Positions 15,299-62,833 of a stretch of DNA of 64,000 nt are shown here, in pieces. Every line of letters begins with the position of its first letter. Positions within the stretch are counted from its first letter, which is position 1. Made by a program: the position numbers and the translations under genes. The notes beneath the pieces were generated by a model. The model did not search any database and was not told where the DNA came from. It saw nothing but the letters and a program-made list of their open reading frames with translations. Source of the stretch: Sipunculus nudus (lineage: Eukaryota; Annelida; Sipuncula; Golfingiida; Sipunculidae); assembly GCA_026874595.1 (NCBI GenBank), contig CM049306.1:85588142-85652141 (forward strand), written 5' to 3'.

Positions 15299-16234
15299 GT
15301 GTAATCTTTAGAATGCATGTTGAAGTGTAATCTTTAGAATGCATGTTGAAGTGTAATCTTTAGAATGCATGTTGAAGTGTAATCTTTAGAATGCATGTTG
15401 AAATGTAATCTTTAGAGTGCATGTTGAAATGTAATCTTTAGAATACATGTTGAAGTGTAATCTTTAGAATACATGTTGAAATGTAACCTTTAGAATGCAT
15501 GTTGAAATGTAACCTTTAGAATGCATGTTGAAATGTAATCTTTAGAATGCATGCTGAAGTGTAATCTTTAGAATGCATGTTGAAGTGTAATCTTTAGAAT
15601 GCATGTTGAAGTGTAATCTTTAGAATGCATGTTGAAGTGTAATCTTTAGAATGCATGTTGAAGTGTAATCATTAGAATACATGTTGAAATGTAATCTTTA
15701 GTATGCAAGTTGAAGTGTAATCTTTAGAATGCATGTTGAAGTGTAATCTTTAGAATGCATGTTGAAGTGTAATCTTTAGAATGCATGTTGAAGTGTAATC
15801 TTTAGAATGCATGTTGAAGTGTAATCTTTAGAATGCATGTTGAAGTGTAATCTTTAGAATGCATGTTGAAGTGTAATCTTTAGAATGCATGTTGAAGTGT
15901 AATCATTAGAATACATGTTGAAACGTAATCTTTTGTATGCAAGTTGAAGTGTAATCTTTAGAATGCATGTTGAAGTGTAATCTTTAGAATGCATGTTGAA
16001 GTGTAATCTTTAGAATGCATGTTGAAGTGTAATCTTTAGAATGCATGTTGAAATGTAATCTTTAGAATGCATGTTGAAATGTAATCTTTAGAATGCATGT
16101 TGAAATGTAATCTTTAGAATGCATGTTGAAGTGTAATCTTTAGAATGCATGTTGAAGTGTAATCTTTAGAATGCATGTTGAAGTGTAATCTTTAGAATGC
16201 ATGTTGAAGTGTAATCTTTAGAATGCATGTTGAA
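15299..16234 (+). repeat. 26-bp minisatellite, 36 copies
   Basis: The unit is GTGTAATCTTTAGAATGCAT plus GTTGAA. 936 bases divide exactly into 36 units. Most copies are identical or differ at G/A in GTGTAAT. A variant pair (AATCATTAGAATACATG followed by a unit with GTATGCAAG) occurs at 15663 and again at 15897, 234 bases or 9 units apart, which indicates a higher-order duplication. Confidence 0.97.
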
Positions 16235-16625
16235 GTGTGATGTTAAAGTGCATCATGACGTGTGATAGTAGGCCCTACTTATGTTCAAACTGCGTGTTGA
16301 AGTAAAGTGTGATGTTCAAACTGGTTGTTGACGTGTGATGTAACTGATGTTGATATTGCATGCTGATTTGTGTGATTGCCATAGTGCGTTTTTATATGTA
16401 ATGTTCAGAATGTAAGTTAAAACACACATGCATAAAGGAGGGTGATTATTATAGAATGTATATTCATGCGTGATGTTCAGAGTGCATGCTGAATTGTTAG
16501 GTTCACAGTACAAGTTTATCTGTTATGATCAGAGTGCGTGCACTTGCCCACTTGGATATTGACGTACATGTACAAGGTTAAGAATGCATGCTGAGGAGTG
16601 GTGTTCCAAGTGCATGTTAAGAATG
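16235..16625 (+). repeat. decayed edge of the minisatellite
   Basis: Fragments such as GTGTGATGTT, GTGCATGTTGAA-like and AATGCATGCTGA continue at irregular spacing for about 390 bases after the last good unit, as expected of an older array edge. Confidence 0.6.
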
Positions 16626-20368: not shown

Positions 20369-20955
20369 TTAATCTGTCTTTGCTGGAGAGAAAATGCCTT
20401 TAAGGATGGTGCATGTTAAATCTTGGAGAAAATGGTGTGATTGGTTAAAATATGCGGCCACAGGGAAGCCAGGGGTGTTGTCGCGGATGTGTTTTTGTGG
20501 TTGTTCATTCTGAGCCTGAATTTTGGTATACCAGTTCCTCATTCCCCTTCCCATTAGGGCATTTTATACAAGCAATAAAAAATGACGTTTGCCGAGGATG
20601 GTGCATGTTAAATCTTGGAGAAAATGGTGTGGTTGGTTAAAATATGCGGCCACAGGGAAGCCAGGGGTGTTGTCGCGGATGTGTTTTTGTGGTTGTTCAT
20701 TCTGAGCCTGAATTTTGGTATACCAGTTCCTCATTCCCCTTCCCATTAGGGCATTTTATACAAGCAATAAAAAATGACGTTTGCCGAATTGCAAGAAAAA
20801 GGGCCTGGAGTTGAAATGTGGGTTGGGTGTTTAAAATATCGCAAATTTGACAGCGGCGGTCACCGTATTTGACATTCCCTGACCGGCCGTTATGGTTGTG
20901 TAATTTCGAATGCACAAGCATTCGTTTCAGGTTAGGAATTATCTGTAGGCGGCAG
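20369..20955 (-). pseudogene. Penelope-like / GIY-YIG retroelement remnant
   Basis: On the minus strand one frame gives PNLKRMLVHSKL…CQICDIL, resembling the 'NLK.LLV.SKL … C..C' stretch between reverse transcriptase and GIY-YIG nuclease in Penelope-like elements. After frame changes come ANVIFYCLYK, FRLRMNNHKNT and PVAAYFNQPHHFLQDLTCTIL, matching the nuclease C-terminal pattern (…RMNNHK…PV..HFN..GHS..DL..TVL). Stops and at least two frame shifts break the reading frame, and the last part lies in the 192-bp tandem duplication. Only this C-terminal piece is present; no reverse transcriptase core was seen. Family assignment is by remembered consensus and could also fit a related GIY-YIG-bearing element. 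Confidence 0.6.
20403..20786. repeat. 192-bp tandem duplication (2 copies)
   Basis: Copies 20403-20594 and 20595-20786 are almost identical; the one difference I noted is GTGTGATTGG versus GTGTGGTTGG. 192 is a multiple of three, so the same minus-strand reading frame appears twice. Confidence 0.95.
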
Positions 20956-33048: not shown

Positions 33049-33747
33049 TTATTTAAAATCTAAGTGAGCATAAAGAAGAAGATGATCTGATGGAAAGAAT
33101 TCCTCAGGTATAATTTCATAGATATCCCTGAGAGTGTCTTGAAATATATGTTTACATATCTGTATATAAACCACCATGCATAGAAAAGTGAATATCAATA
33201 ACAACATGGGAGGCATCTGTAGCCAGGGAAATATTCTAAAGATGACAGAATACTTCGACCTGGACAGCCGGCCCTGGACGCTAGTCCTGTATAGATTAGG
33301 GTTTAACAGACAGCAGTTGTTTCCCATAAATTGTGTAATAAGTTGTCGCTGCCGTTTATTTATTGTATGTAAAACTGATAATGAGGCAAAAACAAGCTGA
33401 ACAAACAGGCCAAGGATAATTATCAAACTAATTTGATAAAGACGATACAGAACGGTTCCGCATTCCTCACATTCTGGAAGCATGCATACATTTTCATTTC
33501 CTCCAGCTATACAAACACCACAGCGACAGGAAGCATGTGGACCACAGTCATGTATACAAGGGCGGCCGTATTCTCCATTTTTTGTATCCTTGGCTGTTTG
33601 TATCACATCACGGAACCTTTTCCATAGTATATGGTAGTAAAAATTGTTCTTGTATTTTTGCCCAGTTCCAGTGACACCGGCTGATGTGACATTGAAGGAT
33701 TTACCAACTAGTATCCTGTCAGGTCTGCTTTCAAAACCAGGTTCTGG
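33049..33747 (-). CDS. EEP-superfamily membrane protein, last exon
   Basis: Acceptor TTGCAG ends at 33748 and the exon runs 232 codons to the stop at 33049. It begins PEPGFESRPDRILV, continuing the EEP fold (the PDR motif corresponds to the R.DYI-type motif). An NVT glycosylation sequon follows. Then comes an eight-cysteine module (C-x3-C-x5-C-x-C-x2-C-x8-C-x4-C-x2-C, containing CGPHASCRCGVCIAGG), a hydrophobic helix (ISLIIILGLFVQLVFASLSV), a basic loop of about 55 residues with a CC pair, and a second helix (MPPMLLLIFTFLCMVVYIQI). The C-terminus is …EEFFPSDHLLLYAHLDFK. SDH is the usual last catalytic motif of the superfamily, so the two helices and Cys module lie inside the catalytic domain. 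The basic loop suggests a cytosolic hairpin, with the nuclease-like domain outside or in the lumen. Substrate unknown: the fold covers DNases, phosphatases and phospholipases. Confidence 0.9.
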   Translation of the reverse strand, partial: PEPGFESRPDRILVGKSFNVTSAGVTGTGQKYKNNFYYHILWKRFRDVIQTAKDTKNGEYGRPCIHDCGPHASCRCGVCIAGGNENVCMLPECEECGTVLYRLYQISLIIILGLFVQLVFASLSVLHTINKRQRQLITQFMGNNCCLLNPNLYRTSVQGRLSRSKYSVIFRIFPWLQMPPMLLLIFTFLCMVVYIQICKHIFQDTLRDIYEIIPEEFFPSDHLLLYAHLDFK

Positions 33748-35560
33748 CTGCAAGGAAAACACAGTGAAACCATTAACACAAGCTCATACACAAATCCATA
33801 GGAAAATAGTAAATGGTAAAATGTTAGAAGAAATATTAACAATATCAGATATCTCTAAATGGTAGCACTGCATGGTTAAATGCTGATCATGCTTCACTGG
33901 ACATATAAAGATAATATCAAGAGCTAAGTATCAAATATTCACAGTTCATTGTCTCTGAAGCTACTAAAATATGTTCCACTGTGAGGTGTCCATTGAAATC
34001 TGGCAATTTTTTCACTAACTGACAGATTAATTCCAAAAGGTATGTTGCAATAAAGGAATGGGGCAGAGGACTATTTAAGTATAATGAAATTAAAGCAAAA
34101 CCTTGCAAAATATTTAAGTAATGCAATAAAATCAAAATCTGAACTGAGTAAACAGTCTATTTTTTACAACATATCAACTCTATTTAGAAAGGTCAAGGTC
34201 ATGAGTCACATGCTCAAACAACTACACTATAAAGCTGCTGATTGCTTGTTTAGTGTCATTAATATTGTAAAATATGTAACTATCAAAGGAAGGTTGACAA
34301 CCAATGACAGACACCATGTCACTTGGCTACAAGTGTCAGAAGTTTTGTTATGATGTTTTAAAACTCATATTAGGCTTTTTGTCCCTCTTCAGGTATAGTG
34401 TCACGGTGTGTAATAATATTTAAGTTTATGACGAAAATCTCCAAATTTCAATTGGTGCCTACTGACGGAAAAGACTTTAATGAGTTTGAACATGCTTTTA
34501 TACAACCACTAATAAATCACATGTTCCTACAGATCTACACTGCATTTGATATATGTCTAGATTACAAAAAAAAATTAAACATCATGATCCTAAGTATACA
34601 TATGAGTCCTGAAGAGATGTGAAAAAATATAAGACAAAATTTAGAGTAATAAAAACCATAACACTAGCACAATAAAGTAGGACGAAAATGTACAGACTAC
34701 CAAACCTGCTTATTGAATTTAATGTTTTCTAACTGGAAATTAGTTAAGTGGAAGGTATCTGGTACAAAGGAACAAAATCAAACAACCAAACATAAAATTA
34801 CAACTTGGCAAATGCAGATGGTCAAGTTTAAGTTTAACAACACAACAGTGACACCTGGTGATCTGATTTCAAACTAATTACAGTGGTAACAAAGTCAAGG
34901 CTTGAATAATTAAATCTTATGTTTTTTCATAAGCAATTCAGTAGTGATTGAAAATATTGCCCTTTTTGTTTGATATAATTCGAAAAATGGATGAACCAAG
35001 AGAGATTTGCTGAACCATGACAAAAATATTACAAATGCCAATTCCATGTGATTTAATTTACTTACTAACTTAATAATGACCCACTTTTGTCAAGAATGCT
35101 ATACTATCCTAAAACAAGAGCAGAGCAAATGATGCATAATACGCCCATCGCATATCTTGTGACCTCTGACCTTAATAAATATGCATGAATTTTGCTGAGA
35201 ATGTAATTCAGGTGAGACACCGTTTTGGTTAATATTCATAATGAGATTCATGAAAATCCATAAGATTTTTGGGAAGTCATAACAGTGCAAGCCAAGTCTG
35301 GTGACCTCTGACCTCATAAAATATGCATGGATTTTACAGGAAATTGACTGTATGTCAGATATTATACTGAATAACATTTCTATTGAGTTTTATCTAAATC
35401 CATCATATTCCTGGTAAGTTATCAAGGTGACACCACAAAGTAGCCTAGTAAAAACTTACCTTATGTAATATCCGTGGATTTTGCCCATATTGGATTTTTT
35501 TTTTTTTTTTTTTTTTTGTCGGAGGTAACCGCCTCCATTTTTTAATGCTATCTTAACTAA

Positions 35561-36757
35561 CTAGACATTTCTTGGCACCGCTGGTGCCATAGTATCGCCA
35601 GACAAATGAGGTTTTGTGGTATTTTGTTGATATAATGTGATGTATTTGTATTTGAGCAATGAATGTGAGAAACATTTGTACAAAATATAGGAATATTTTG
35701 GATTGGGAAGGACAATTGATCAAAGGGTTTTTGACTTATAATGCTCACAGTGCTGTCAAGTGGCCCTTTTTAAGATATTCATGATTTTATGTTTTTCACC
35801 AAATATGGGAATATTCAAGGTCAAGGTCACTCTCATAGTCACGGTCATGACCCCAAATCAATAAACTGCATAAATTTAAAAAAAAATAATTTAAATTAAA
35901 TTAAATTTTAAAATTAAATTTAAAATTAAATATACCTCATTCCATAAACCATATCTATATACATGCATAACATGAAAGAAATCTGTCCATTACTGTTTGA
36001 CTTATAATGCTCACAGTAAATACTGTCAAGTGGCAATGATGGGGTATTCAAAGGCGCAAAAAACAAGAAAAGGACAACAGGTGGCGCCACCTATCTTCTG
36101 CAAAAGACAAAACTATCCAAGATCTTCCGTCAACTTGATTTTTGGACCAATCCATGCATCCCTTTTTAAGATATTCATGATTTTATGTGATTTTCACCAT
36201 ATATGGTAATATTCAAGGTCAAAGCCACTCAAAGGAAAGGTCATGACCCCAATTTTAATATACATCCTCCCATAACCCATACCTATGTACATGCATAATA
36301 TTATAGAAATCTGTCAATCAGTTTTAGACTTGTGATGCTAAAAGTACTGTCAAGTGGCAATGATGGGGGTATTAAACGGCACAAAAACAAGAAAAGGATA
36401 CTAGGTTGCACCACCAGTTTCCGGTACATGACATCACTATCCAAGATCTTTGTCCAACTTGATTTTTGGATAAATCCATGAAAGATTTCTTGAGATATTT
36501 AAGAATTTGTGTGATTTTCCCCAAAAATGGATCTATTCAAGGTCAAGGTCACTCTCCTAGTTGAGGTCATGACCCCATTTTAAATAGGCTTCGTCCTCTC
36601 ACCTATATCTATAAATGTGTCAAGTTTGAAAAAGATCCTTGAAATATTTTTTTAGTTATTGTGTCCAAAAGAAATCTCTGCGGCGGAGGCGGTGGCGGCG
36701 GCGGCGGCGCAACCGTGCCTAAACCATAGTATCTCCAGACTATGTCTGGCGATACAA
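35561..36757 (-). mobile_element. family C Helentron-like element, complete copy
   Basis: The plus strand begins CTAGACATTTCTTGGCACCG, with hairpin TGGCACC/GGTGCCA, followed by AGTATCGCCAGAC. The right end is GTCTGGCGATACAA, so GTATCGCCAGAC and GTCTGGCGATAC form a subterminal inverted repeat. Read on the minus strand this is 5' TTGTATCGCC … hairpin … CTAG 3', as in Helitron2/Helentron relatives. The interior holds repeats with CAAGGTCAAGGTCACTC and a (CGG)n-like stretch near 36678-36712. There is no Rep/helicase gene. Confidence 0.75.
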
Positions 36758-36995
36758 TAATATGTACATCTGCAGATTTCCATTCCGGTTTCAGACTGTG
36801 ACAGGGCAGCATCACACGCTTCCTCTCATTTGATATCCTGGCGATAACCAGCCCGGTGACTACTGCACCTGCGGGCCCTGGGTTGTTAATCATACAACCG
36901 AGGACCCCCGAAAGCCGCACGACATTCCCATTAAGCCTGCAGAGCGCTCACCCTGGGTGGGGGCCGACCGGGAAAAACCTCACCGCCTCAGCTGT

Positions 36996-37048
36996 GGTTC
37001 AAACTCACGATCTCCCGGCTTTGAGTTGTGCACTCTACCCCTGAGCCA
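36996..37048 (-). promoter_or_regulatory. RNA polymerase III internal promoter (A and B boxes) of the SINE
   Basis: TGGCTCAGGGG at 37048-37038 and GTTTGAACC at 37004-36996, in the order and roughly the spacing of a tRNA gene. The head does not fold as a clean tRNA, so it is treated as a SINE head. Confidence 0.7.
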
Positions 37049-37273
37049 CAGAAGCCGGTTGCCCATATTGGAATTCAGGCGAGATAATCTATTGGTCAGT
37101 AGTTATTGTGAGTTTTTGTGAAAATTAACTGAAGCCCTGGTAAGTTATCGCGGTGACACTAAAAGTTAACAGACAGATGGACAGAACGATGGATGGACTG
37201 TGGGTATACCATAATATATCCCATCATAGGCAGGAGCATAAAAAAGTTGAAGTTCACTGATGGGGCCCCTTAC

Positions 37274-37485
37274 CATATTGCTGAATGTGAAGCCAGGTTC
37301 TGACTCTGTATGTGATGATGTCCAGGCATCCTGCAGGACCATGGAAGGACTTATCCTGGGTAAGGACTCTGATTTACAAGTACTCTTCTCATCTTGTTTG
37401 TCCTTCATAAGCAGGTCAGCAGGCCATCTGTAGTCCTTGTACAGATTCATGTCACCAATAACTACAGTGTTCTGTAGTCTGTTCT
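37274..37485 (-). CDS. EEP-superfamily membrane protein, exon with GDMN motif
   Basis: Acceptor GTTATAG precedes 37485 and donor GTAAGG follows 37274. It joins in phase 1 to the previous exon (…QYLQ|E) and in phase 0 to the next. Residues read ENRLQNTVVIGDMNLYKDY…, and GDMN is the catalytic GD.N motif of the EEP fold. Further on VLQDAWTSSH and GFTFSNM match the 'L.DAW … G.TF…' pattern that precedes the PDR motif. The ORF continues past the donor into intron and a repeat-like tail, which is why the donor at 37273 is preferred. Confidence 0.92.
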
Positions 37486-38700
37486 CTATAACAAACAGAG
37501 AGAAACTGTGTCTTGCTACATTCAACAACAATTTATTCCTCAAAACAATTCATTTTAGCTTCAGCAACAGTGAATATGACTTAAATTTCCATTTCAAATC
37601 TCCTGACCCAGCGGTTATACACTGCAGTCATCCTAGACATTTTTTCATGTAACTGCTTCTTTGTATGGCAAGGTTCTCTCGGACAGAACACCCGGTTATG
37701 TGCAGAGCAAAGAATTGAAATCAGACCACTGAAAGCATGGTATAGTAATGTGCATCCAGCCCAAATTTTGAACATGTGACATCCACTCTTGCTGATTTGA
37801 TTACACCGGGAAACAAGCTCTCATTGACTGATATTTGGCCTAGGTCAGAATGGGTGTTATCAGAACATTGAGAGATGGTGTCACTTCTTTTAAAATTTGA
37901 GCTGGATACAAAATGTAACAAGCAAATTTGTAAAATTAATGTCCCCCCACTTTGGGATCTTGTTGTCTTTCATGCTTGATAATTAACCAAAATTATGACA
38001 TGTGGGGAAAACAGATCCACTATGACATGTGGAGAGATCTGCAGGTGAACATAAAAACTAAAACACATTGAGAAATTGGACCAAAATTTAAAAAAATTTG
38101 TTTTTGAGCCAGAGAGAAATGATTTTCAGATAGACACTCCAAAAACGATCCCCACTAAGGTATGGATGAGAGCAATCACTAGCCCAAATTTGAATGAAAT
38201 CGGATAATATTTAGGAAAGTTATCCCACGGAAAGAACCTGAGGGACGGACAGACAGACAGATTGAAATCCAAGAAGAATTTAAAATCGCCTAGACAAGAT
38301 TGCAATTGTGATTTTGCCTAGGCAAGATTGCAGTTGTGATCTCAGCTAGACAGATTTTAAACTCACCTTTATATATATCTCTCTCTTAACTCAAGTCTTA
38401 AATTTATATATAATTTAAGTCTTAAAATGCGAAAGCCAAGATGAGATATATTAAACAGCTTAAGCATATATAAATAGTTCAGCTTACAGTTTATGTTAGG
38501 GTTGTAACTGAATAATTTAGTAGTCATTGGGTTTCCTCAATACGACTATACAGCATTCAAAGTTCATCGGTAACTGTATCCATGGATGTTGTGTATGGAT
38601 ATGTTTTTATATACTGGCAGATTGATCCAGCCCGAGTGTACAAAGCTTTTAATACTTTATTTTGAACCTGAAAATGGAAAGTACATATATATCAACTAAC

Positions 38701-38913
38701 CTTGTAGGTATTGGAGGAGATCAGCTGCATTGTTACATTGTTGCTGTTTGTCGTATGAGAAGTGAACGACTGCTACATTAACCACAGTTCCTTTGTCATG
38801 TAGTACTATCCGGGCGTGTAACACCGCTCGTCTGTTAGTATCAGGGCCACGGTTGTACGACAGACTCTGTATGTCTGATTTGATGATGGGATACTTGCTT
38901 AGAAGTCCAATGC
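38701..38913 (-). CDS. EEP-superfamily membrane protein, exon with SKYPI and VHFS motifs
   Basis: Acceptor TTTTCAG before 38913, donor GTTAGT after 38701, entering and leaving in phase 1. The 70 codons give IGLLSKYPIIKSDIQSLSYN… and GTVVNVAVVHFSYDKQQQ…. The first part is the 'G.GLLSKYPI' strand typical of EEP proteins. The VVHF segment carries the conserved active-site histidine of the fold. Confidence 0.92.
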
Positions 38914-41040
38914 CTGAAAAGCACAGATCAAATCAACATACTACTCTGCTAATATATTACAATTAGTGAAGAAGAAGGTCCCAGCTCAAGTGAGTAACTC
39001 AAGTGAGTAGCCCTTGAGTGATTTAGGCATTAGAGCTGAAGTTGTTAATTTGATCCCTGCTAAGTCCTTGGATGCCAAATGGTGAAATCACAATAATAAA
39101 CTCAGTGATTTAGAAAGACCTTTTTACAAGAGGCTATGAGTTATGATGACCAGACTATTCAAAGTCCCCCTCAAATAAAACTTTAACTCTTGAAGGCTTA
39201 CAAATTACATAATAAAAATTAATTCTTAATACATGCTTATTTTCATTTTCATCCAATAGGTGTCACCTGCTGGCCCTGGGTATCTCTAATAAAAATAAAA
39301 AATAACTAGACATTTCTTGGCACCGCAGGTGCCAGAGTATCCCCAGACAGAGTACGCCCCCCCCCCCTTTAAGAATAGGCCCCCATTTTTAGCAGCATAT
39401 ACTGACACTTGGCAAGCAATTATTGTTTCTTCCATCTATCAATCCACAATCTTTTTGAAGATGTTGGTCCTGTGACCTTGACCTTTTGGCACATCACAAG
39501 GCTAAATCAATAAAAGCAGGAATTATCATCCAGACACTAATTTTTTGGACAGATGGCTCCTGTGACCTTCACCTTTGACCTTGTAACCTCAAAATTGATA
39601 GGGGTCCTCCTCTATTGGCAGATGAACTATATGTGCAAGATGAAAGGTCTGAGATGAAATGTTTGGCTGAAAATGCATCCACAATCTTTTTAAAGATGTG
39701 TCCTGTGACCTTGACCTCATGACCCCAAATCAATTGGAGTCGTCCTTTTTCAATGGGACATATATAAGTCAAGTTTGAAATAAAGACATCAATAAAAGCA
39801 GGAATTATCATCCAGAATCTAATTTTTTGACAAATAGCTCCTGTAGCCTTGACCTTGTGACCCCAAAATTGATATGGATCATCCACTATTGGCAGGTGAG
39901 CTATATATTCAAGATGGAAGACCTGGGATGAAAGTTTGGCTTAAAATGCATCCACAGTATCTTTTAAGATGCAAGTCCAGTGGCCTTGACCTTTGACCTC
40001 ATGACCCTAGAACCTATAGGGTTCTTACTTTAGTGGTGGGCCATACATAAGTCACGTTTGAAATCCATACTGCTATCGACACTGGAGATATCATAAGAGG
40101 TGTGTGATTTTCACCAAATATGGAGACATTAAAGGTCAAGGCCACTCTCATGGTAAAGGTCATGACCCAAATGTAAATAGACCTCATCCCATAACCCATC
40201 TCTCTACATGTGCATAATATGAAAGAAATCTGTCCATTAGTTTTTGACTTATAATGCTTACAGTAAAGTCAAGTGGCAATTATGGGGGTATTAAAAGGCG
40301 TAAAAACAAGAAAAGGATAACAGGTGGCGCCACCAGTTTCCGGTATATCACAAGGCTATCCAAGATCTTCGGTCACCTTGATTTTTAAACCAGTCCATGC
40401 AAGCTTACTTGAGATATTTAAGAATTTGTGTTATTTTCAGCAAAAATGGGACCTATTCAAGGTCAAGGTCACTCTCCTAGCATAGGTCATGACCCAATTT
40501 TAAATAGGCTTCGTCCCCTTACCTATATCTAGACAAATGTAAAGTTTGAAAAAGATCAGTGAAATATTTTTTGAGTTATCCCACTCACAAGGTTTTTCTG
40601 CATTAAGTTATATAACAGTTTATTAGTGTTATGATATTGTACAATGCTACTGGAGCAGAATACAAGCCCAGCAAGCTAGCATGTATTGACATGTACTGAC
40701 TGCTTTCATTTCTATGTAATTATTACAGTGTCATTTTGATTATGCATGCAGCAGCTGGTACTCATCATTAACAAATAGCTTAAAAAAGAAACTACAAATA
40801 AGCCAGGAAAAATTGATCAGATTTGTATTGAATAAGGAATAGAAGATCACATATTAGTTTTGATGATTTTTTTTTAAATGCAAAGGTTGGATGTGGATAA
40901 TTGGGTCACTCAACTGAAATAAAATCACATGTACAACACTGTTCATGGGCATGTACCATTGAATCTCTGAGATCAGTTTGATCATGTAAAATTATCACAT
41001 ACATATACAACATGATCATCACAACATGCATTTAAATTAC
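38914..41040 (-). other. EEP gene intron
   Basis: Contains the second family C copy; 40611-41040 shows nothing recognisable. Confidence 0.7.
39306..40610 (-). mobile_element. family C Helentron-like element, second copy, right end lost
   Basis: Starts CTAGACATTTCTTGGCACCG like 35561 and includes the same hairpin. It continues through GTGACCTTGACC repeats and ends with the block TTTTAAATAGGCTTCGTCC shared with 36570-36600. The (CGG) stretch and final GGCGATACAA are missing. It lies in an EEP gene intron. Confidence 0.7.
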
Positions 41041-41103
41041 CTGGATTTGGTGAAGCAGTTAGTGAGACTTTCTTTTTCATAGGTATACTGTGGTATCCTC
41101 TGC
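41041..41103 (-). CDS. EEP-superfamily membrane protein, small 63-bp exon
   Basis: Acceptor CAACAG before 41103 and donor GTAATT after 41041. Phase 1 on both sides restores GRGYHSIPMKKKVSLTASPN and PG across the junctions, leading directly into IGLLSKYP of the next exon. Its size and phase fit leave little doubt, although it has no motif of its own. Confidence 0.85.
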
Positions 41104-43098
41104 CTGTTGACATACCGTAAAAAAATACCCATGCTAGTTTTAAGAAAGCAGTTAAATTATACCTAATGTGATATATTCAGGCTAGGGTTGGCCGGTAAAT
41201 GCCAGGGTGGTAAATGCAACTGGTAATTCCGGGGAAATGCCAGCATGCCGGGCATGGACAATACCCCCTCTGGCAAATAAGTGGCAATTAAATGGCAAAT
41301 ATAAAATAAATGCCTCATTTTCTGTTTGATTATGGTCACAAAGATCTACATACTATAAAGACCCACAATATCAAAAGAATTGCTAAATACAGATAAAATG
41401 GGATTTACCTGCAACAGCAGACCTAGAGGACAACAACAGTGCATTGCAAAATTAATAATAAGTACTGTTACAGTGTGTGATAAAAGTTTTGAATTAAGTT
41501 TAGCAGAAATCACAAATGGAGGATCAATATATTTCCCAAGGGCTCATGTTAATTTAAATGAATATATATTAAACTGTGCCCGAAGTTTTATAGTTTAATT
41601 TATCTGTATCTATATTGCTTCTTGAAGGTTTCTCTCTTACTGCTTAGAAATAATCCTCATGGGAAGGCGGTGTGTATGAATTAATACTTTGACTCAGTCA
41701 TTATAGGCTGTTAGTGCTTCTTCAAACTGATCATGTATTTCAGTGATAACAATTACTTCTTGTAGCTTGTTCTAGCCTATACTAGTTTATGGAATAGCAG
41801 AATGTTTAAAGGTTTCAGTGTCGGTATAAGTACTTCAAGTTAATTATTGCCTTTGAGTATAGAGTCTTTGTTGGTATTTTTAATAAAGTATAAAGATATT
41901 CACCAGACATAGCTGCTAGATCATAAATAATTTTGATAAGAAGACTACAAATCATGTGTTTCTTCTCCTATTGGTAGGGGTTTTCCACTCCAATTCTTGT
42001 CACCATTTAGTAACACTATTGCATTAGCAATATTCATTGCAAACAAATCAGGCAATTATCATGATTATATTGGGTCTGATTATTGCTGTGTCCCTAAACA
42101 GCAGCAGATTTATGCCTGGAAGAGAACTTCTGTGCTTCTGTTTATCTATGACCATCATCAAAGACCAGATAGGTCTAGGTAGTTTGGTTGGCTGGTGTCT
42201 GGCTGAAACCAGTGCTGTCCAGTGCAATTAGGACCACTGGTCATCACTTACATAACAGCTGGCCCGACAGGCATAGACCGGTAGTTTGAGATTGTGGGAG
42301 ATCTTAACTGAGTTGCTTTGAGCGAAATAATCGTCTGAGCACTCGTAATCACGTCATCTGAGGCATTATAATGTAATTTATATGATCAACCTGGTGTAAT
42401 TCTTAACTGTTTACGCTGTTGATAACTGCTTGACATCATGAAATAAGAACATTTCGAAATGCCGGGGAGGCGAGTTTCCAACTTTGCTTCCCGGATTATC
42501 TTATAGGGGAAATGTCGTAAAGATTGATTATGTCGGCCGTGGGCGAACTTTCTAAACTTCATTTAATAAATAAATATATATTTTTTTTCATATTAATTTA
42601 TAAATGATTAAAATGCATCTTAATGTGAGATTATATAGGCTAAACAACATCGGTCGAGCACTGGACGCTCGCTTGCCACTTTATTCCGACCACAAGAACA
42701 TCGATCTCTTCAGTTTATGTGCAGCCCCTTCTTGTGTGTGGACCTACCCTGAGGCGATGCATTCTTGACATCAGTGGTGTTACCATTCAATCAGTGTCAC
42801 AGTATTTGTATCATGTAATCCCGCATATTTGGTTTTATCAGAGATTCCTACCTGAGGATTCCAGCAATTCTTTCATATAACTACGTTCGTTTAAGGGTCG
42901 CATTATTTAAACTTTTAGGGGACGCATGTGAAAATATTGCGTCCACATGGGCGCGCTTGCCTAGAAACAAAGGGACATGGCCAAAAATATTATGCCGCAC
43001 TCTAGGAGCAACACTGGAAGACAGTTCAAAATGTCCTATGCCAAAGGCTGCAAGAGCTATTTCAACCATGAGCACAATATTAAGAAATTGTTAGATAC
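41104..43098 (-). other. EEP gene intron, no gene inside
   Basis: No exon seen. A short stretch at 41190-41295 repeats TAAATGCCA/GGCATGG-like phrases. ORFs at 41997-42231 and 42881-43075 have no conserved motif. Confidence 0.6.
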
Positions 43099-43279
43099 CT
43101 TCCATATCCCATCCTTTCAGGTAGGTATGTTTCCTGGGGGTGACCTCATTTATTGGATGGTATATCTTCCAAGGGTATTCTCCAAGCAGTTCGTGTAAAC
43201 CATCAAGCTGACTGGCTGAGCCATCCAGGTGACTTCTAACCTCTTGAAAGCCAATAATATCAGGATTTACTTCTTTTAT
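43099..43279 (-). CDS. EEP-superfamily membrane protein, exon with QE motif (5'-most exon found)
   Basis: Acceptor TTTCAG before 43279, donor GTATCT after 43099. It encodes IKEVNPDIIGFQEVRSHLDG…HELLGEYPWKIYHP…YLKGWDMEG. PDIIGFQEV holds the metal-binding glutamate of the EEP active site. Exon(s) encoding the start, probably with a signal peptide and a TYN-like first strand, must lie further upstream on the minus strand. I could not recognise them between 43280 and 64000, so they may be hidden among the repeats or lie outside the window. Confidence 0.9.
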
Positions 43280-46431: not shown

Positions 46432-46479
46432 CAAGGGACCTATGGGTCACTGTGCTCAGCTGACGTTAACCTTGAAGGT

Positions 46480-46735
46480 AAAAATTTAAATAATATCAAA
46501 TGGAGATAAAGTGTAAGAGGAAGAGGTAATAAAGGCCATGGTTGGTTTATATGATTGGTTTGTATTGATGAGCAAGAAATTGTTGCAAATAATATTTTGT
46601 GACCTGACCATGTGTTTCCTAATGTTGAAACTGAAGCATGTGAGCAGTTTGTGAACAAATGATCTGTACAATTACCATGATCATTAGTTGGCTTTTCGAT
46701 TAACTGTTGACATTTCAGTAGTTTACACATTTGTT
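46480..46735 (-). pseudogene. possible LINE endonuclease fragment inside the family B element
   Basis: The minus-strand frame reads FEQMCKLLKCQQLIEKPTND then HGNCTDHLFTN and GHKILFATI. It resembles the 'L.QLI..PTR….. IDHIFTN … SDH.LIYA' region of LINE APE-type endonucleases. It is short, the SDH serine/aspartate pair is not intact, and no other LINE domain is near. The same fragment recurs at 61010-61262. Confidence 0.3.
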
Positions 46736-47414
46736 CAATCGAATCTTTCTTTGTATAATATATATTATTAAATATATGTTTTTTTTTTATGAAATGTATA
46801 CAGTTGAAATATAACTAATTAATAACATAAAACATGGCAAACAAAGCCTGATCTCAAATTCTGCTGATGCAGGAAAATAATGAACAAATGTTTGTAATAA
46901 ATCCTCATTTTTCTTATCACATCAATTTTTTTAAAAATTTAAGTTTATATTTCTATACATTTTCAATATAACATATATATCTGGATATAAAAGTTGATTC
47001 ATAATTCTCAATTGCATCATCATAAATCCAATTTTGTCAGATAACACCACATCATGCATACAAATGTTTATTAATTTTTTACCACAAAACTATATCTTTT
47101 ATGTCTGCAAAACAATAAATATCTAAAAAAAAATACTTGATTTAGATTTCTCAATTTTATTTTTAATTGTGTCTTAATTTATCCATAATGTGCTTCATAT
47201 TTTATAATAATTTAAGCATACTGATGGGTTCCATCATGATTGGTAAAATCATTTAAAAGAAAAATGATTTCTTTAAAAATGCTACATTACACAACATTGC
47301 ATCTTCTGGATTACACCTTGAATTACTTTTTCTAGGAAAGTTTTTGCATATCAGAGTGGAAACAGCATTACAATTAAGGAGATACAGTGAACACTTGGTG
47401 GGTTGGGTTTGCAT

Positions 47415-47425
47415 GGGGGGGGGGG
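47415..47425. repeat. poly-G tract (11 G)
   Basis: Its counterpart in the duplicated segment has 18 G (61929-61946). Confidence 0.9.
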
Positions 47426-48229
47426 TGATTGGGGTGGTGATATGAGAATAACTGTACACCTGTCACAGCAGGGGATCTCCCCCAGTGACTGTAACAAATC
47501 AGAAACCCTGGCATAGCTGACTTCCAGTGACCTGGAGTGGGACCCTGCATCTGTAATCTGTAATCAAAGCAAATGACTACAATAGAGCCTCAAGATAAAA
47601 ATCAATAACTAGCTTAATTTTCAAGCTTTTACTTCCAAATTTCAGATTTAAACAAATAAAATATTTATGTTTACATGGTGTGAAAATTAAATCAATGGTA
47701 CTTACAGGAAAAAAACGTGCCATGGTCAAAGTTGGGCAAAATTTAAGGTACTGATTTTATTTAATGCTAATTACTTAAAAAATTTACAAAATTCAGATCT
47801 AATTTTGGGTAAACAATTGAATCTTAATTAAACATAGTTATATACTTGGGAAAATAGACTCTAGTTTCAAATTTTTCATGTTAAGTGAGTAAATATTTTT
47901 CCTGATTTTTTACAAAGTCCATTATGTTTGGGCCCATAACTTAAAGATTTTATACTTAACAGACTTAATTTCTGGCATGTACATAGAAACAATATAGAAG
48001 AATATTTATGGTAAATATGAGGAAAAACAGATGAGTGGTTTTGATATTAGGCAGTCCTGAAGTGTGAAAATAGGATTTTAATAAAAAATTGAGGTTTTTC
48101 CTTAATTTCTCAAAGGAACGAAGTTGCAAAGATCCAGTTTTCGGCTTGGTAGGAGATCTTGGGGACATCTAACATTATGCTGAATTTTGGATTCCTAGGT
48201 CTTACGGTTTCAAAACGTGCCACATCTAC

Positions 48230-48275
48230 GGACGGACGGACGGACGGACGGACGGACAGACGGACGGACGACGGA
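48230..48275 (+). repeat. (GGAC)n tract
   Basis: ACGGACGGACGGAC repeats with one GACAGAC interruption, just inside the family B right end. Shorter versions occur at 60220-60250 and 62752-62777. Confidence 0.9.
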
Positions 48276-48326
48276 CAATGGACCATGACTATAGCTCAGA
48301 TGACTTATAGTCAGCTGAGCTAAAAA

Positions 48327-51321: not shown

Positions 51322-52680
51322 CTAGGGACCCATGGGTCTCGACGCTCACCTGCATTTGTCTATAAGGATATATGTTTATGAGGTTTTTCAAAATATTGGT
51401 CCTGTGATCAGTTTGAAGCCAACCTGTCTACCCAAACAGGAGTTATCATCCATAAACTAATTTGTGAATGGATGGGCCCTGTGACCTTAACCTTTGACCT
51501 TGTGACCTCAAAATCAAAAGGAAACATACCCTATTGGCAGTTGCACCACATGTTGATGATGGAAGGATTGAGATGAAAAGTTTGGCTTAAAATTAATCCA
51601 CAATCTTTCTAAAGCAGTGGCTCCTGTGACCTTGACCTTAGATCTCATGACCCCAGAATCAACAGTTCTTACTTTAGTGGTGGGCCATATATAAGTCAAG
51701 CTTGAAACCAATATTTCAAACCAACTGGTGTTATCATCTGGAAACTAATATGTGGATTGTTGGCCCCATGTCCTTGACCTTTGACCTTGTGACCCCAAAA
51801 TCCATAAGTTACTTCCACTATTGGCAGGTGAGCAACATCTAGAAGATAGACGGTTTGGGACAGAAAGTTTGGCTAAAAATACATCAACAATCTTTTTGAA
51901 AAAGTGGGTCCTGTGACCTTGACCTTTGGCCTTATGACCCAAAAATCAAAAGGGTCATATATAAGTCACAACTGAAACCAATATGTCAATCCGAACTGGA
52001 GTTATCATCCAGAAATAAATATGTGGACAGATGGGCCCCTGTGACGATGACCTTTGACCATGTGACCCCCAAATCAATCAGGCTCTTCCCCTATTGGCAG
52101 CTCAGCTATATGTGCAAGATGAAAGGTTTGGGATGAAATGTTTGGTTTAAAATGCATCGACAATCTTACTAAATAAGTGGGTACTGTGACCTTGACCTTT
52201 GACCTCATGACCCGAAAACTGAACAGAATCTTCCCCTATTAGCAGGTAAGCAATATCTTGAAGATGGAAGGTTTTGGATGAAAAGCTTGGCTTCAAATGC
52301 ATATGTATTATTTAAAAAAAAAATGAGTCCTGTGACCTCGATCTTTGACCGTTGGACCCCAAAATGGACACAGTTCTTACTTTAGTGGTGAGTCATATAT
52401 AAGTTAAGATTGAAACCAATATGTCAAACTAAACTGGAGTTACCATCTAGAAACTAATTTGGGGGTACTTTCAAGCCCCATAGCTTGGAGGATATGGGTC
52501 ATAGTGACCTAATTTCAGGTTTCCAAGGAGATTTTTTATTGACCTCCTTGGATGTTCACTTTGAAGTTTCTAGGACCAGCAGTTACGATTTGTGCCCTGC
52601 TAACAGTGGCCAGACGGCCAGACGACGAACAAAGCGCCATCCCTATACCTCAGTTGACTTACAGTCAGCTGAGCTAAAAA
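51322..52680 (-). mobile_element. family B Helentron-like element, complete copy with AGGTCA array
   Basis: The left end is CTAGGGACCCATGGGTCTCG then ACGCTCACCTG, preceded by A, with perfect hairpin GACCCATGGGTC just inside CTAG. The right end is CTCAGTTGACTTACAGTCA then GCTGAGCTAAAAA. Seven tandem blocks of roughly 145 bp lie between, each with a GTGACCTTGACCTTTGACC segment. Confidence 0.8.
51475..52370 (-). repeat. about 145-bp tandem array, 7 copies, with AGGTCA direct repeats
   Basis: The segment TGTGACCTTGACCTTTGACC (or near variants) recurs near 51479, 51624, 51768, 51911, 52039, 52185 and 52330. On the minus strand it reads AGGTCAAAGGTCAAGGTCA, a DR1-type pair plus TCAAGGTCA. Confidence 0.85.
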
Positions 52681-53885: not shown

Positions 53886-55058
53886 CTAGAATACGGGTAG
53901 TCGCCAAGCGACTACGTGTATCCGCCTAAATCAGAGTGGAACGGGTGAAGTGAGGCATGGATTGAGTGGCAAGGGGAAATAGAGTGTTGCATATTAGCAT
54001 GGATGTCTGCAGCCAAATTGTGTATGTAGGGTGCCCCCCACCACAAAATCCAGAAAGCCGTCCAAGTTGTATACATATGCAAAATTTAAGGCAGATAAGT
54101 CAAACCACAACATGTATATGAGTGATTTTAGCCCGTGGCAGACAAACAGATGGACGCTGAGCAAAAATGGTTGCAGGTGACGCCACCAGTTTTGCGTATG
54201 ATAAAGAGCTATGAGAGTACTATACACATGCAAACTTTGGCCCAATCGGACAAACGGTTCCCAAGATATGAGCTTGGATGTCTGCTGCATAAACTAGAAT
54301 GCAGGTGGCGCCACCTGTCATAAAATCAAGAGAGCTGTCGGGGATGTATAAACCTGCAAAATTTTAGGCAGATATGTCAAACCACTGCCGAGATATGAGT
54401 GATTTTATCCCATGGCAGACAAACAGACAGGAACTGTGCAAAAATGGCTGCAGGTGGCGCCACCAGTTTTGCGTATGATGAAGAGCTATGTGAGATCTAT
54501 ACACATGCAAAATTTTGGCCCAATCGGTCAAACGGTTCCCGAGATATGAGCTTGGATGTCTGCAGCGTAAACGTGAATGTAGGTGACGCCACCTGTCATA
54601 AAATCAGAAAAGCTATCCAGGATGTTTACGCATGCCGAATTTCAGGTGAATTAGTCTAGTCACTGCAGAGGTATGAGTGATTTTAACCCAAGGCAGACGA
54701 ACAGATGGACACTGTGCAAACATGGTTGCAGGTGGCGCCACCATTTTTGGTGTATGTTATTAAGCTCTCCAAGGGCTACATTTGTGCAAAAAAAATTTCC
54801 TGATCGGTCAAATGGTTCCCGAGATATGTGGGTTTATGTTTGGAAACAGACGCACAAACGGACGCAGAGCGCAGAGGAAAGGTCAGAGGTCAAAACAAAA
54901 TCGGGTGCAGCAGTTCACATGTGACCTGAACATAATCCCGGGTTTCGAAAAATTCCGCCCAGCGGTTACGGAGGAGTTCTCCGGACACCTACGCCGCGGC
55001 GGCGGCGGCGTGCAGCTGAAAACATAGTATCTGCAAAACTCTGTTTTGGCGGATACAA
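53886..55058 (-). mobile_element. family A Helentron-like element, complete copy
   Basis: Left end CTAGAATACGGGTAGTCGCC then AAGCGACTACGTGTATCCGCC; right end CTGTTTTGGCGGATACAA. The interior has GGTGGCGCCACC palindromes about every 140 bp and a (CGG)n stretch at about 55000-55012. The flanks are AAATACAAATACAA-type repeats. Confidence 0.85.
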
Positions 55059-57836: not shown

Positions 57837-59268
57837 CTAGAATACGGGTAGTCGACAAGCGACTACTTGTATCCGCCTAAATCAGAGTGGAACGGGTGAA
57901 GTGTTGCATATCAGCATGGATGTCTGCAGCCAAATTGTGTATGTAGGTTGCGCTACCTACCAAAAAATCCAGAAAGCCGTCCAAGTTGTATACATATGCA
58001 AAATTTAAGGCAGATAAGTCAAACCACTATATTGTATATGAGTGATTTTTGCCCTTGGCAGACAAACAGATGGACGCTGTGCAAAAAAGGGTTGCAGGTG
58101 GCGCCACCAGTTAAGCGTATGATAAGAGCTTTGTGAGAACTATACACATGCAAAATTTTGGCCCAATTGGTCAAACAGTTCCCTAGATATGAGCTTGGAT
58201 GTCTGCAGTGTAAACTTGATTGTAGGTGGCGCCACCTGTCATAAAATCAGAAAAGCTATCCAGGATGTATAAGCATGCAGAATTTCAGGTGAATTAGTCA
58301 AACCACTGCAGAGATATGAGTGATTTTAACCCAAGGCAGACGAACAGATGGACACTGTGCAAACATGGTTGCAGGTGGCGCCACCATTTTTTGTGTATGT
58401 TATAAAGCTCTCCAAGGGCTACATTTGTGCAAAAAAATTTTCCTGATCAATCAAACGGTTCCTGAGATATGAGCTTGGATGTCTGCAGCGTAAACATGAA
58501 TGTAGGTGGCGCCACCTGTCATAAAATCAGAAAAGCTATCCAGGATGTATACGCATGCCAAATTTCAGGTGAATTAGTCAAGTCACTGCAGAGATATGAG
58601 TGATTTTAACCCAAGGCAGACAAACAGATGGACACTGTACAAACATGGTTGCAGGTAGCGGCACCATTTTTGGTGTATGTTATAAAGCTCTCCAAGGGCT
58701 ACATTTGTGCAAAAGAATTTTCCTGATCGGTCAAACGGTTCCCGAGATATGAGCTTGGATGTCTGCAGCGTCAACGTGAATGTAGGTGGCGCCACCTGTC
58801 ATAAAATCAGAAAAGCTATCCAGGATGTATACGCATGCCAAATTTCAGGTGAATTAGTCAAGTCACTGCAGAGATATGAGTGATTTTAACCCAAGGCAGA
58901 CGAACAGATGGACACTGTGCAAACATGGTTGCAGGTGGCGCCACCATTTTTGGTGTATGTTATAAAGCTCTCCGAGGGCTACATTTGTGCAAAAGAATTT
59001 TCCTGATCGGTCAAACGGTTCCCGAGATATGTGGGTTTATGTGTGGAAACAGACGCACAAACGGACGCAGAGCGCAGAGGAAAGGTCAGAGGTCAAAACA
59101 AAATCGGGGCGCAGCAGTTCACATGTGACCCGAACATAATCCCGGGTTTCGGAAAATTCCGCCCAGCGGTTACGGAGGAGTTCTCCGGACACCTACGCGG
59201 CGGCGGCGGCGGCGGCGGCGACCAGCTGAAAACATAGTATCCGCAAAACTCTGTTTTGGCGGATACAA
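57837..59268 (-). mobile_element. family A Helentron-like element, youngest-looking complete copy
   Basis: The left end is CTAGAATACGGGTAGTCGAC then AAGCGACTAC, with a perfect hairpin GTAGTCG/CGACTAC and ACAAG loop. Next comes GTATCCGCC. The right end is GGCGGATACAA. Related unoccupied sites at 45916 and 60650 read AAAACAATTACGCAATACTG, and here the element splits AAAACAA from TTACACAATACTG. Three 280-bp units start at 58221, 58501 and 58781. Confidence 0.9.
58221..59000 (-). repeat. 280-bp tandem array with GGTGGCGCCACC palindromes
   Basis: TGTAGGTGGCGCCACCTGTC starts at 58221, 58501 and 58781, exactly 280 apart. A second palindrome per unit follows GGTTGCA about 150 bases later, one of them mutated (GGTAGCGGCACC). 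Confidence 0.95.
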
Positions 59269-60306: not shown

Positions 60307-60969
60307 CATTAATAAAAGCTACAATTTTTGGCCAATTTCTTTCAGCTTTCTATGCTGAAATCCTTATGTGTGCATGATATGAAAATTATATCAACAGTGC
60401 TCACGGGAAACAAACGTGCCATGGTCACAGTTGGGCAAAATTTAAGGTACTAATTTTATATTTATACTAATAACTTATAAAATTTGAAAAATTAAGAACT
60501 AATTTTGGGTATTCAATTGAATCTTGATTAAATAATGTTACATCCCTGACAAAAAAATCTCTAGCTTCAGCAATGCCCTTGTTAAGGGAGTAAATATATT
60601 TCTTGATTTTTTTACAAAGTGTATTATGTTTCGGCCCATAACTTAAAACAATTACGCAATACTGACATCATTCTGGCATGTGCATAGAGATTGAAAAATA
60701 TGTATATTATTTATGATTAAAGTCAGATCAGTGGTTTTGATATTTGGCAGTCTTGAAGTTAACAATGGGTTTTTAATGGAAAAATGAAGTTTTTCATTAA
60801 TATCTCGAAGGTATTAAGTCCTAGTGACCAAATTCTTGGCATGGTAGGGGATTTTGGAGACATCTAACTGTATGCCGAATTTAAGGAACTTAGAGCTGAA
60901 GCTGGGGAGCTGAGCTCTTGCAAACTGCATAACACTAGCTTGATGTAAACAATATGTTTCATGGTGCTT
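60307..60969. repeat. third copy of the 45580-46240 repeat
   Basis: Starts AAAAGCTACAATTTTTGGCC and runs in parallel with 45575-46250 through AACGTGCC, GGCCCATAACTT and CTTGGCATGGTAGGGGATTT. It lacks the family A insertion. Confidence 0.85.
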
Positions 60970-62833
60970 GAGTCACTGTGCTCAGCTGATGTTAACCTTG
61001 AAGGTAAAAATCTAAAATAATATCAAATGGAGATAAAGTGTAAGAGGAAGAGGTAATAAAGGCCATGGTTGGTTTATATGATTGGTTTGTATTGATGAGC
61101 AAGAAATCGTTGCAAATAATATTTTGTGACCTGACCATGTATTCCTAATGTTGAAACTGAAGCATGTGAGCAGTTTGTGAACAAATGATCTGTACAATTA
61201 CCATGATCATTAGTTGGCTTTTCGATTAACTGTTGACTTTTCAGTAGTTTACACATTTGTTCAATCGAATCTTTTTTTTTGTATAATATATATTATTAAA
61301 TATATGTTTTTTTTATGAAATGTATACAGTTGAAATATAACTAATTAACAACATAAAACATGGTAAACAAAGCCTATCTCAAATTCTGCTGATGCAGGAA
61401 AATAATGAACAAATGTTTGTAATAAATCCTCATTTTTTATCACATTAATTTTTTTTAAATTTTAGTTTATATTTCTATACATTTTCAATATAACATATAT
61501 ATCTGAATATAAAAGTTGATTCATAATTCTCAATTGCATCATCATAAATCCAATCTTGTCAGATAAGACCATATCATGCATACAAATGTTTATTTATTTT
61601 TTACCACAAAAATATATCTTTTAAATCTGCAAAACAATAAATATCTAAAAAAATACTTGATTTAGACTTCTCAATTTTTAATTGTGTCTTTATTTATCCA
61701 TAATGTGCTTCATATTTTATCATAATTTAAGCACACTGATGGGTTCCATTATGATTGGTAAAATCATTTAAAAGAAAAATGATTCTTTAAAAATGGTACA
61801 TTACACAACATTGCATCTTCTGGATTACACCTTGAATTACTTTTTCAAGGAAAGTTTTTGCATATCAGAGTGGAAACAGCATTACAATTAAGGAGATACA
61901 GTGAACACTTGGTGGGTTGGGTTTGCATGGGGGGGGGGGGGGGGGGTGATTGGGGTGGTGATATGAGAATAACTGTACACCTGTCACAGCAGGGGATCTC
62001 CCCCAGTGACTGTAACAAATCAGAAATCCTGGCATTACTGACTTCCAGTGACCTGGAGTGGGACCCTGCATCTGTAATCTGTAATCAAAGCAAATGACTA
62101 CAATAGAGCCTCAAGATAAAAATCAATAACTAGCTTAATTTTCAAGCTTTTACTTCCAAATTTCAGATTTAAACAAATAAAATATTTATGTTTACATGGT
62201 GTGAAAATTAAATCAATGGTACTTACAGAAAAAAAACATGCCATGGTCAAAGTTGGGCAAAATTTAAGGTACTGATTTTATTTTTATGCTAATTAATTAA
62301 AAAATTTACAAAATTCAGATCTAATTTTGGGTAAACAATTGAATCTTAATTAAACATAGTTATATACTTGGGAAAATAGACTCTAGTTTCAAAATTTTTC
62401 ATGTTAAGTGAGTAAATATTTTTCCTGATTTTTTACAAAGTCCATTATGTTTGGGCCCATAACTTAAAGAATTTATACTTAACAGACTTAATTTCTGGCA
62501 TGTACATAGGAACTATATAGAAGAATATTTATGGTAAATATGAGGAAAAACAGATGAGTGGTTTTGATATAAGGCAGTCCTGAAGTGTGAAAATAGGATT
62601 TTAATAAAAAATTGAGGTTTTTCCTTAATTTCTCAAAGGAACGAAGTCGCAAAGACCCAGTTTTCGGCTTGGTAGGAGATCTTTGGGACATCTAACATTA
62701 TGCTGAATTTTGGATTCCTAGGTCTTACGGTTTCAAAACGTGCCACATCTACGGACGGACGGACAGACGGACGGACTACGGACAATGGACCACGACTATA
62801 GCTCAGATGACTTACAGTCAGCTGAGCTAAAAA
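60970..62833 (-). mobile_element. family B-related segment, duplicate of 46448-48326
   Basis: Runs in parallel with 46448-48326 from GTCACTGTGCTCAGCTGA to the terminus GCTGAGCTAAAAA, with few differences. The extreme left end (CAAGGGACCTATGG) is absent, so this copy is 5'- or 3'-truncated depending on the element's direction, or arose by recombination. The poly-G tract is longer here (18 versus 11). Confidence 0.8.

Follow-up and report, generated by a model that had tools for sequence, protein, structure and literature searches.

A putative EEP-superfamily gene of Sipunculus nudus with a predicted membrane hairpin ahead of its last catalytic motif

How can an active site be assembled from two parts of a protein chain that are separated by two predicted membrane crossings? 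This question is raised by a gene of the sipunculan Sipunculus nudus, located on the minus strand (43279..33049) of a 64,000-nucleotide stretch of contig CM049306.1 (assembly GCA_026874595.1, positions 85,588,142 to 85,652,141). The whole stretch is hereafter called the window, and all coordinates refer to it. The gene product has the motifs of the endonuclease/exonuclease/phosphatase (EEP) fold, and its final motif, SDH, follows a cysteine-rich module and two hydrophobic segments of transmembrane length. The original prediction, made from the letters of the DNA, had proposed a membrane-anchored ecto- or lumenal hydrolase. We consider it rather probable that the gene codes for a membrane-held EEP (DNase I-like) phosphodiesterase, ecto- or lumenal, in which the hairpin holds the active site to the membrane and the substrate is a phosphodiester of the membrane surface. 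Membrane-spanning segments rarely interrupt catalytic domains.

Reading of all frames together with a check of the boundaries gave four coding exons. The five exons and four junctions assumed originally were corrected by re-translation to four exons and three junctions. Exon A (43279..43099; IKEVNPDIIGFQEV...WDMEG) starts in phase 0 and contains the metal-ligand Glu E13 (codon 43243-43241); its acceptor TTTCAG/ATA and donor GAAG/GTATCT (the slash marks the exon boundary) are both weak by crude score. Exon B (38913..38701; IGLLSKYPI...VVHF...LQ) carries the catalytic His H111 (codon 38764-38762) between the acceptor TTTTCAG/GC and the donor ACAAG/GTTAGT. D143 and N145 are encoded by exon C (37485..37274; ENRLQNTVVIGDMN...FTFSNM; acceptor TTTGTTATAG/AG, donor ATATG/GTAAGG). 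Exon D (33747..33049) opens behind the acceptor CCTTGCAG/CCA and comprises 232 codons and the stop TAA (33051-33049), with PDR, the insert and SDH in this single open exon. All junctions are of the AG/GT type and fall after the first codon base (A to B and B to C) or between codons (C to D). Spliced, the exons amount to 1305 nucleotides, or 434 residues plus stop, which scripted re-translation reproduced exactly; they represent the 3' part of the protein.

An artefact of splicing or frame was ruled out because PDR, insert and SDH share one open exon that is improbable by chance. The introns of this gene contain 550 stops in 8920 triplets; at this rate, 209 open codons would arise by chance with a probability of ~1.7e-6 and 233 open codons with ~4e-7. 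No other frame between two stops in the window is as long as the one that contains exon D (244 codons), and none of 60 resamples of the window under a second-order Markov model had a frame of this length (maximum 215). The other two frames of exon D contain 9 and 16 stops.

On profile evidence the protein is a member of the EEP superfamily: the 434 residues matched Pfam PF03372 with an E-value of 1.3e-13 and 51.7 bits against a cut-off of 24.5. The match begins at profile column 26 in exon A, which carries part of it even though its splice sites score poorly; the 5' end of the gene is missing, and the first EEP strand may lie outside the window. The motifs recognized originally (PDIIGFQEV, LLSKYPI, VVHF, GDMN, SRPDRILV and PSDH) were all present, in this order on the minus strand from 43279 to 33049, and supply the catalytic series E13, H111, D143, N145, D212, D423 and H424. 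In a three-row alignment with two bacterial homologues, E13, D143, N145, D212 and the SDH of the tail were invariant, the Asp of PDR (D212, 33718..33720) aligning with the D-x-I Asp of both. H111 was not invariant in these three rows and was placed by the VVHF motif and by alignment with the profile built from 11 bacterial homologues. Of these, two came from genome contigs; the other nine, drawn from plasmid records, are 2 of 10 and 7 of 30 matches listed with those two as queries. The final pair, D423 and H424, lies in PSDH (33082..33093), and this tail is in register with PF03372.

No NCBIfam model matched the 434 residues at E<=1, and the search of the PDB with the single sequence gave nothing credible (one match, E 0.62). 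At E<=0.1, a profile of three sequences (the protein minus its insert and the two bacterial homologues) found 54 distinct PDB sequences; the top match was exodeoxyribonuclease III (E 1.7e-7), and sphingomyelinase C (chains at E 2.2e-6 and 1.2e-5), nocturnin, TDP2 and APE1 were included. As this profile contains bacterial rows, it settles the superfamily but not the subfamily. A retrotransposon endonuclease was rejected on the multi-exon structure and the lack of another Pfam match above cut-off, with no separate retrotransposon model used.

The distance from D212 to S422 is 209 residues. The large gap between PDR and SDH thus stood as first described, with its length corrected from about 205. 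Since both motifs are in exon D, the distance is independent of splicing. In all 11 bacterial homologues the corresponding spacing was 20-24 residues (10 by script; L010, which has D-Q-L for D-x-I, has 20). The long link leaves membership of PF03372 intact, because a short link is typical of the fold without being a formal criterion. The insert covers approximately residues 232-413 (33115..33660, minus strand, limits approximate). Just ahead of it the Pfam profile halted at column 215, and it reached 225 of 225 columns once the insert was set aside. The score was 51.7 bits with the insert, 58.8 without it, and 53.7 without insert and tail, ending then at column 214. When the tail was replaced, three times by a shuffled version and twice by a slice of the insert (one slice slightly inexact), all five constructs scored 53.2-53.8 bits and stopped at column 214-215. 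With the 11-homologue bacterial profile, the true tail gave 38.6 bits, no tail 37.6 and the shuffled tails a mean of 37.3, with 997 of 1000 shuffles below the true tail. SDH as a chance string is unlikely, given that the Pfam match no longer ran to its end with any substituted tail and that only three shuffles in 1000 scored as high. The EEP fold with an SDH reached only after the Cys module and two hydrophobic segments was upheld; minus the insert, SDH is in profile register, weakly so with the bacterial profile.

The anatomy of the insert agreed with the first description of an eight-Cys module and two hydrophobic segments joined by a basic loop, all on the minus strand. The module (C266-C298, 33460..33558) has Cys at residues 266, 270, 276, 278, 281, 290, 295 and 298, a spacing of C3C5C1C2C8C4C2C. 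It matched no Pfam family at E<=10, and the one match in the PDB, Microneme protein 3 (E 1.3), was not credible; EGF or another known Cys-rich domain was rejected on these grounds. By eye the module resembles integrin-type EGF repeats. For the insert as a whole, neither Pfam nor the PDB offered a credible match. Hydrophobic segment 1 (residues 305-328, 33370..33441) reached an octanol sum of -12.3 and a Kyte-Doolittle value of 2.67 in its best 19-residue windows, and segment 2 (residues 374-400, 33154..33234) reached -15.6 and 2.34; the best windows outside this region gave +3.5 and 0.95. The loop between the segments (residues 329-373, 33235..33369) contains 8 K/R and no D/E. Were the loop cytosolic, its Cys-Cys pair at 347-348 (33310-33315) might be palmitoylated. 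The flanks hold 1 K/R and 4 D/E (residues 282-304) and 2 K/R and 5 D/E (residues 401-421). AlphaFold2 applied to exon D alone placed helices at 94-145 and 180-212 of the exon (protein 296-347 and 382-414), whose cores had ten-residue means of 68-80 and 76-77; this low-confidence model supports the helices and is silent on the docking of SDH.

Basic loops stay cytosolic according to the positive-inside rule. The +8 loop between net-negative flanks, taken with this rule, would therefore be cytosolic, with the Cys module and the two parts of the EEP domain on the outer or lumenal side. The charge pattern thus favours the ecto- or lumenal catalytic side that had been proposed, a topology that is itself inferred. 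The sole N-glycosylation sequon of the 434 residues, found by motif scan and a predicted site (NVT, N221, 33685..33693), is on the EEP side of the hydrophobic segments.

In the EEP fold, the turn that joins the last two strands carries SDH and lies at the active-site mouth; the order of the motifs is also seen in the PDB alignments. Here the insert takes the place of the few residues ahead of this turn. A hairpin at this point would hold the mouth to the bilayer, which would make a membrane-surface phosphodiester the likely substrate. In the proposed mechanism, the catalytic domain would be broken just ahead of SDH by the Cys module and a two-helix membrane hairpin; the second helix would return the chain, and the SDH strand would close the sheet. 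The membrane hairpin would press the active-site mouth to the bilayer, so that free nucleic acid would be a less likely substrate than a phosphodiester on or close to the membrane surface, such as a lipid head group, a glycosylphosphatidylinositol (GPI) anchor or a glycan of the membrane. The original wording of an active site completed only after a membrane hairpin derives from the order of the motifs in the chain. A more far-reaching form of this idea we hold only tentatively, as possible rather than probable: the EEP domain would be split by the bilayer, with an extracellular disulfide module, two crossings and a return with Asp-His, and the site would form only in the membrane-inserted protein, facing the membrane surface, which would make it an undescribed class of animal enzyme. 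If true, nature would here have made catalysis conditional on membrane insertion, in the slot that the hairpin occupies in bacterial sphingomyelinase. The loop before SDH would then be the membrane-facing slot of the EEP fold, a testable structural idea, and an animal gene whose insert is without credible Pfam or PDB match would gain a concrete hypothesis of function. The gene is real and unusual, and a membrane-facing mechanism for this member of a known enzyme fold is plausible.

Bacterial sphingomyelinase C offers the closest positional parallel. Its EEP fold has a membrane-engaging element shortly ahead of the catalytic His, as the present protein would. The bacterial element is a short aromatic beta-hairpin, whereas the element found here spans ~180 residues and comprises a Cys module and two segments of transmembrane length; the aromatic hairpin is absent, and the same position holds a different element. 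This shared slot makes a membrane-surface substrate likelier than free nucleic acid. In line with a hairpin in this slot, the beta-hemolysin chain 3k55, a hairpin-deleted form, aligned through SDH with four extra residues just ahead of it, and the chains 3i5v and 3i41 aligned only to residues 276 and 279. In the sphingomyelinase of B. cereus, the central metal ion is bound by H296, and liposomes of sphingomyelin are bound less well when W284/F285 at the apex of the beta-hairpin are mutated (PMC9710629). Membrane contact is thus made 11-12 residues ahead of the catalytic His.

Two membrane helices and an EEP-type catalytic domain on one chain are also combined in human SMPD2 and yeast Isc1. In SMPD2, D238 and H272 are 34 positions apart, two helices are C-terminal, and the D-K switch is formed by D111-K116 (PMC10682184). 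In the present protein D212 and H424 are 212 positions apart and the helices lie between them instead of at the C-terminus, a comparison in which the equivalence of D238 and D212 is assumed and not aligned. The arrangement of neutral sphingomyelinases, with helices C-terminal to the EEP domain, was accordingly not found, as segments 305-328 and 374-400 precede SDH at 422-424. No chain named neutral sphingomyelinase was among the 54 PDB sequences matched by the three-sequence profile. The only lead among molluscs was PVC-28 of the snail Raphitoma purpurea, an EEP protein 596 residues long that has a signal sequence and a cysteine framework and for which its authors score no transmembrane domain (PMC11359391). 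PVC-28 shares the EEP domain and a Cys framework with the sipunculan protein and differs by the lack of a scored transmembrane domain, the two being compared by description only, with no relation established. A passage in PMC11788884 concerned OCRL and was unrelated.

Another reading keeps the same architecture and topology and makes the protein a membrane-anchored ecto-nuclease, with extracellular or endosomal DNA or RNA as substrate in nutrition or defence and the hairpin as a mere anchor. We regard this main alternative as unlikely, though less so than those that follow. Exodeoxyribonuclease III heads the PDB profile matches, among which are also APE1, TDP2 and nocturnin, and the D-R-I triplet of the protein may be reminiscent of DNase I. 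An anchor beside the active-site turn would, however, hinder the access of long nucleic acids. That an EEP nuclease can be membrane-associated is shown by the extracellular ExeM of Shewanella, which has one C-terminal transmembrane helix preceded by D822 and H823 (PMC6085458). ExeM resembles the present protein in a membrane-attached EEP domain with its catalytic side outside the cytoplasm, but its helix follows the domain, whereas the anchor here lies inside it.

Besides PF03372, Pfam named a single EEP family, the C-terminal nuclease-like domain of PGAP2IP (PF23226), with 14.5-16.3 bits over 74 residues. The EEP cluster of PGAP2IP includes Cwh43 and the GlcNAc-PDases, which take phosphorylcholine off N-acetylglucosamine (GlcNAc), and Cwh43 and PGAP2IP are linked to the remodelling of GPI lipids (PMC10704324, PMC7125958). 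A lumenal phosphodiesterase of lipid anchors or glycans, functionally akin to this group, could be derived from these observations, but the score stayed under the curated cut-off of 27 and only those 74 residues were covered. The EEP domain is shared, and the passages on the group mention neither helices nor a Cys module between the motifs, nor an insert before SDH. We therefore judge this assignment improbable. Among the possible substrates of the membrane-held phosphodiesterase that we prefer, GPI anchors and phosphorylcholine-type glycans are suggested only by this sub-threshold match.

The reverse topology, with a cytosolic EEP domain, a zinc-binding Cys module and a lumenal basic loop, appears slightly less probable again. 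Many animal EEP enzymes are intracellular, as is generally known, and eight Cys can also bind zinc; the loop of 8 K/R without acidic residues between net-negative flanks nevertheless contradicts the positive-inside rule, and the NVT sequon stands on the EEP side. A decayed or 5'-truncated gene copy without a functional protein is very improbable, for although the first strand was missed upstream and exon A has weak splice sites, four open exons have fitting phases, AG/GT junctions and the later catalytic residues, 233 open codons are hardly expected by chance, and in the repeat-rich upstream region the introns may simply be long.

Several results weigh against a membrane-held phosphodiesterase as preferred here. 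The first EEP beta-strand with its Asn was not found by regular expressions or profile search in the 20.7 kb upstream of 43279, where the N-terminal profile of the 11 bacterial homologues reached at best 7.8 bits compared with 9.2 in control sequence. No signal peptide was found in the window, no signal-peptide predictor having been applied. Because of these two gaps, the placement outside has to be argued from the charges, the Cys content and a single sequon, and K401 stands at the outer end of segment 2. The model of exon D had a mean pLDDT (predicted local distance difference test) of 52.4 and a pTM (predicted template modelling) score of 0.29, which is low confidence. In the 11-homologue profile the true tail gained just 1.0 bit over no tail, the three shuffles that scored as high reached a maximum of 39.9, and the tail was outside the best local domain, which ends ahead of it. 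ExoIII-type nucleases rank first among solved structures in the profile comparison, so that the sequence alone does not favour lipid substrates. In a crude splice-site scoring, the acceptor and donor of exon A scored -1.58 and 0.83, compared with 2.70 to 6.68 for the other sites. Splice-like sites within exon D (best donor 3.57, best acceptor 5.62) are in the range of real sites, and other isoforms, including a form without the hairpin, are therefore possible. Finally, no relatives with the insert were found among viral, bacterial, archaeal and plasmid collections.

As the collections cover viruses, bacteria, archaea and plasmids, this lack of relatives with the insert is no evidence of rarity. 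In viral contigs, exon D matched one stretch, the EEP part seven and an alignment 89, and none was confirmed. The plasmids gave no match for the EEP part and none for exon D. The genome contigs were searched with the EEP part alone, and two of 137 matched stretches were confirmed, both bacterial. By eye, these two EEP homologues (L001:1701-2708 and L002:1674-2594) have hydrophobic segments at their start, before the EEP domain; attachment of EEP proteins to membranes thus recurs, there at the N-terminus. Among the open-access matches listed, searched by titles and the starts of abstracts, no description of an EEP domain interrupted by membrane helices was met, a weak negative since the family name in its slash form is unsearchable.

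The introns and surroundings of the gene contain numerous repeats. In the intron between exons C and D, a transfer RNA (tRNA)-like stretch on the minus strand (36802-37060) looks like a tRNA-derived short interspersed element; its GTGGCTCAGGGGTAGAG at 37049-37033 is the single copy in the window within 3 mismatches and is followed, by eye, by GAGTTTGAACC. ARAGORN found no tRNA in the window. Diverged repeats that are ~69-84% alike (35923-36659, 39506-40579 and 51434-52460) are common to the gene introns and the upstream region and, by eye, are rich in AAGGTCAAGGTCA-type and TGACCTTGACC-type stretches. Two large duplicated blocks (46443-48326 and 60969-62833), 95.4% identical over 1896 aligned bases, stand amid further repeat blocks at 44-63 kb. 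These blocks are 5' of the EEP gene and may hide its missing first exons. Tandem arrays with units of 278 and 280 bases were located at 54045-54749 and 57908-59031. Elsewhere in the window, a minisatellite (15299-16238) consists of 36.2 copies of a 26-base unit with 95% matches, and a 192-base unit is present in two tandem copies with 99% matches (20403-20787), probably the result of a recent duplication.

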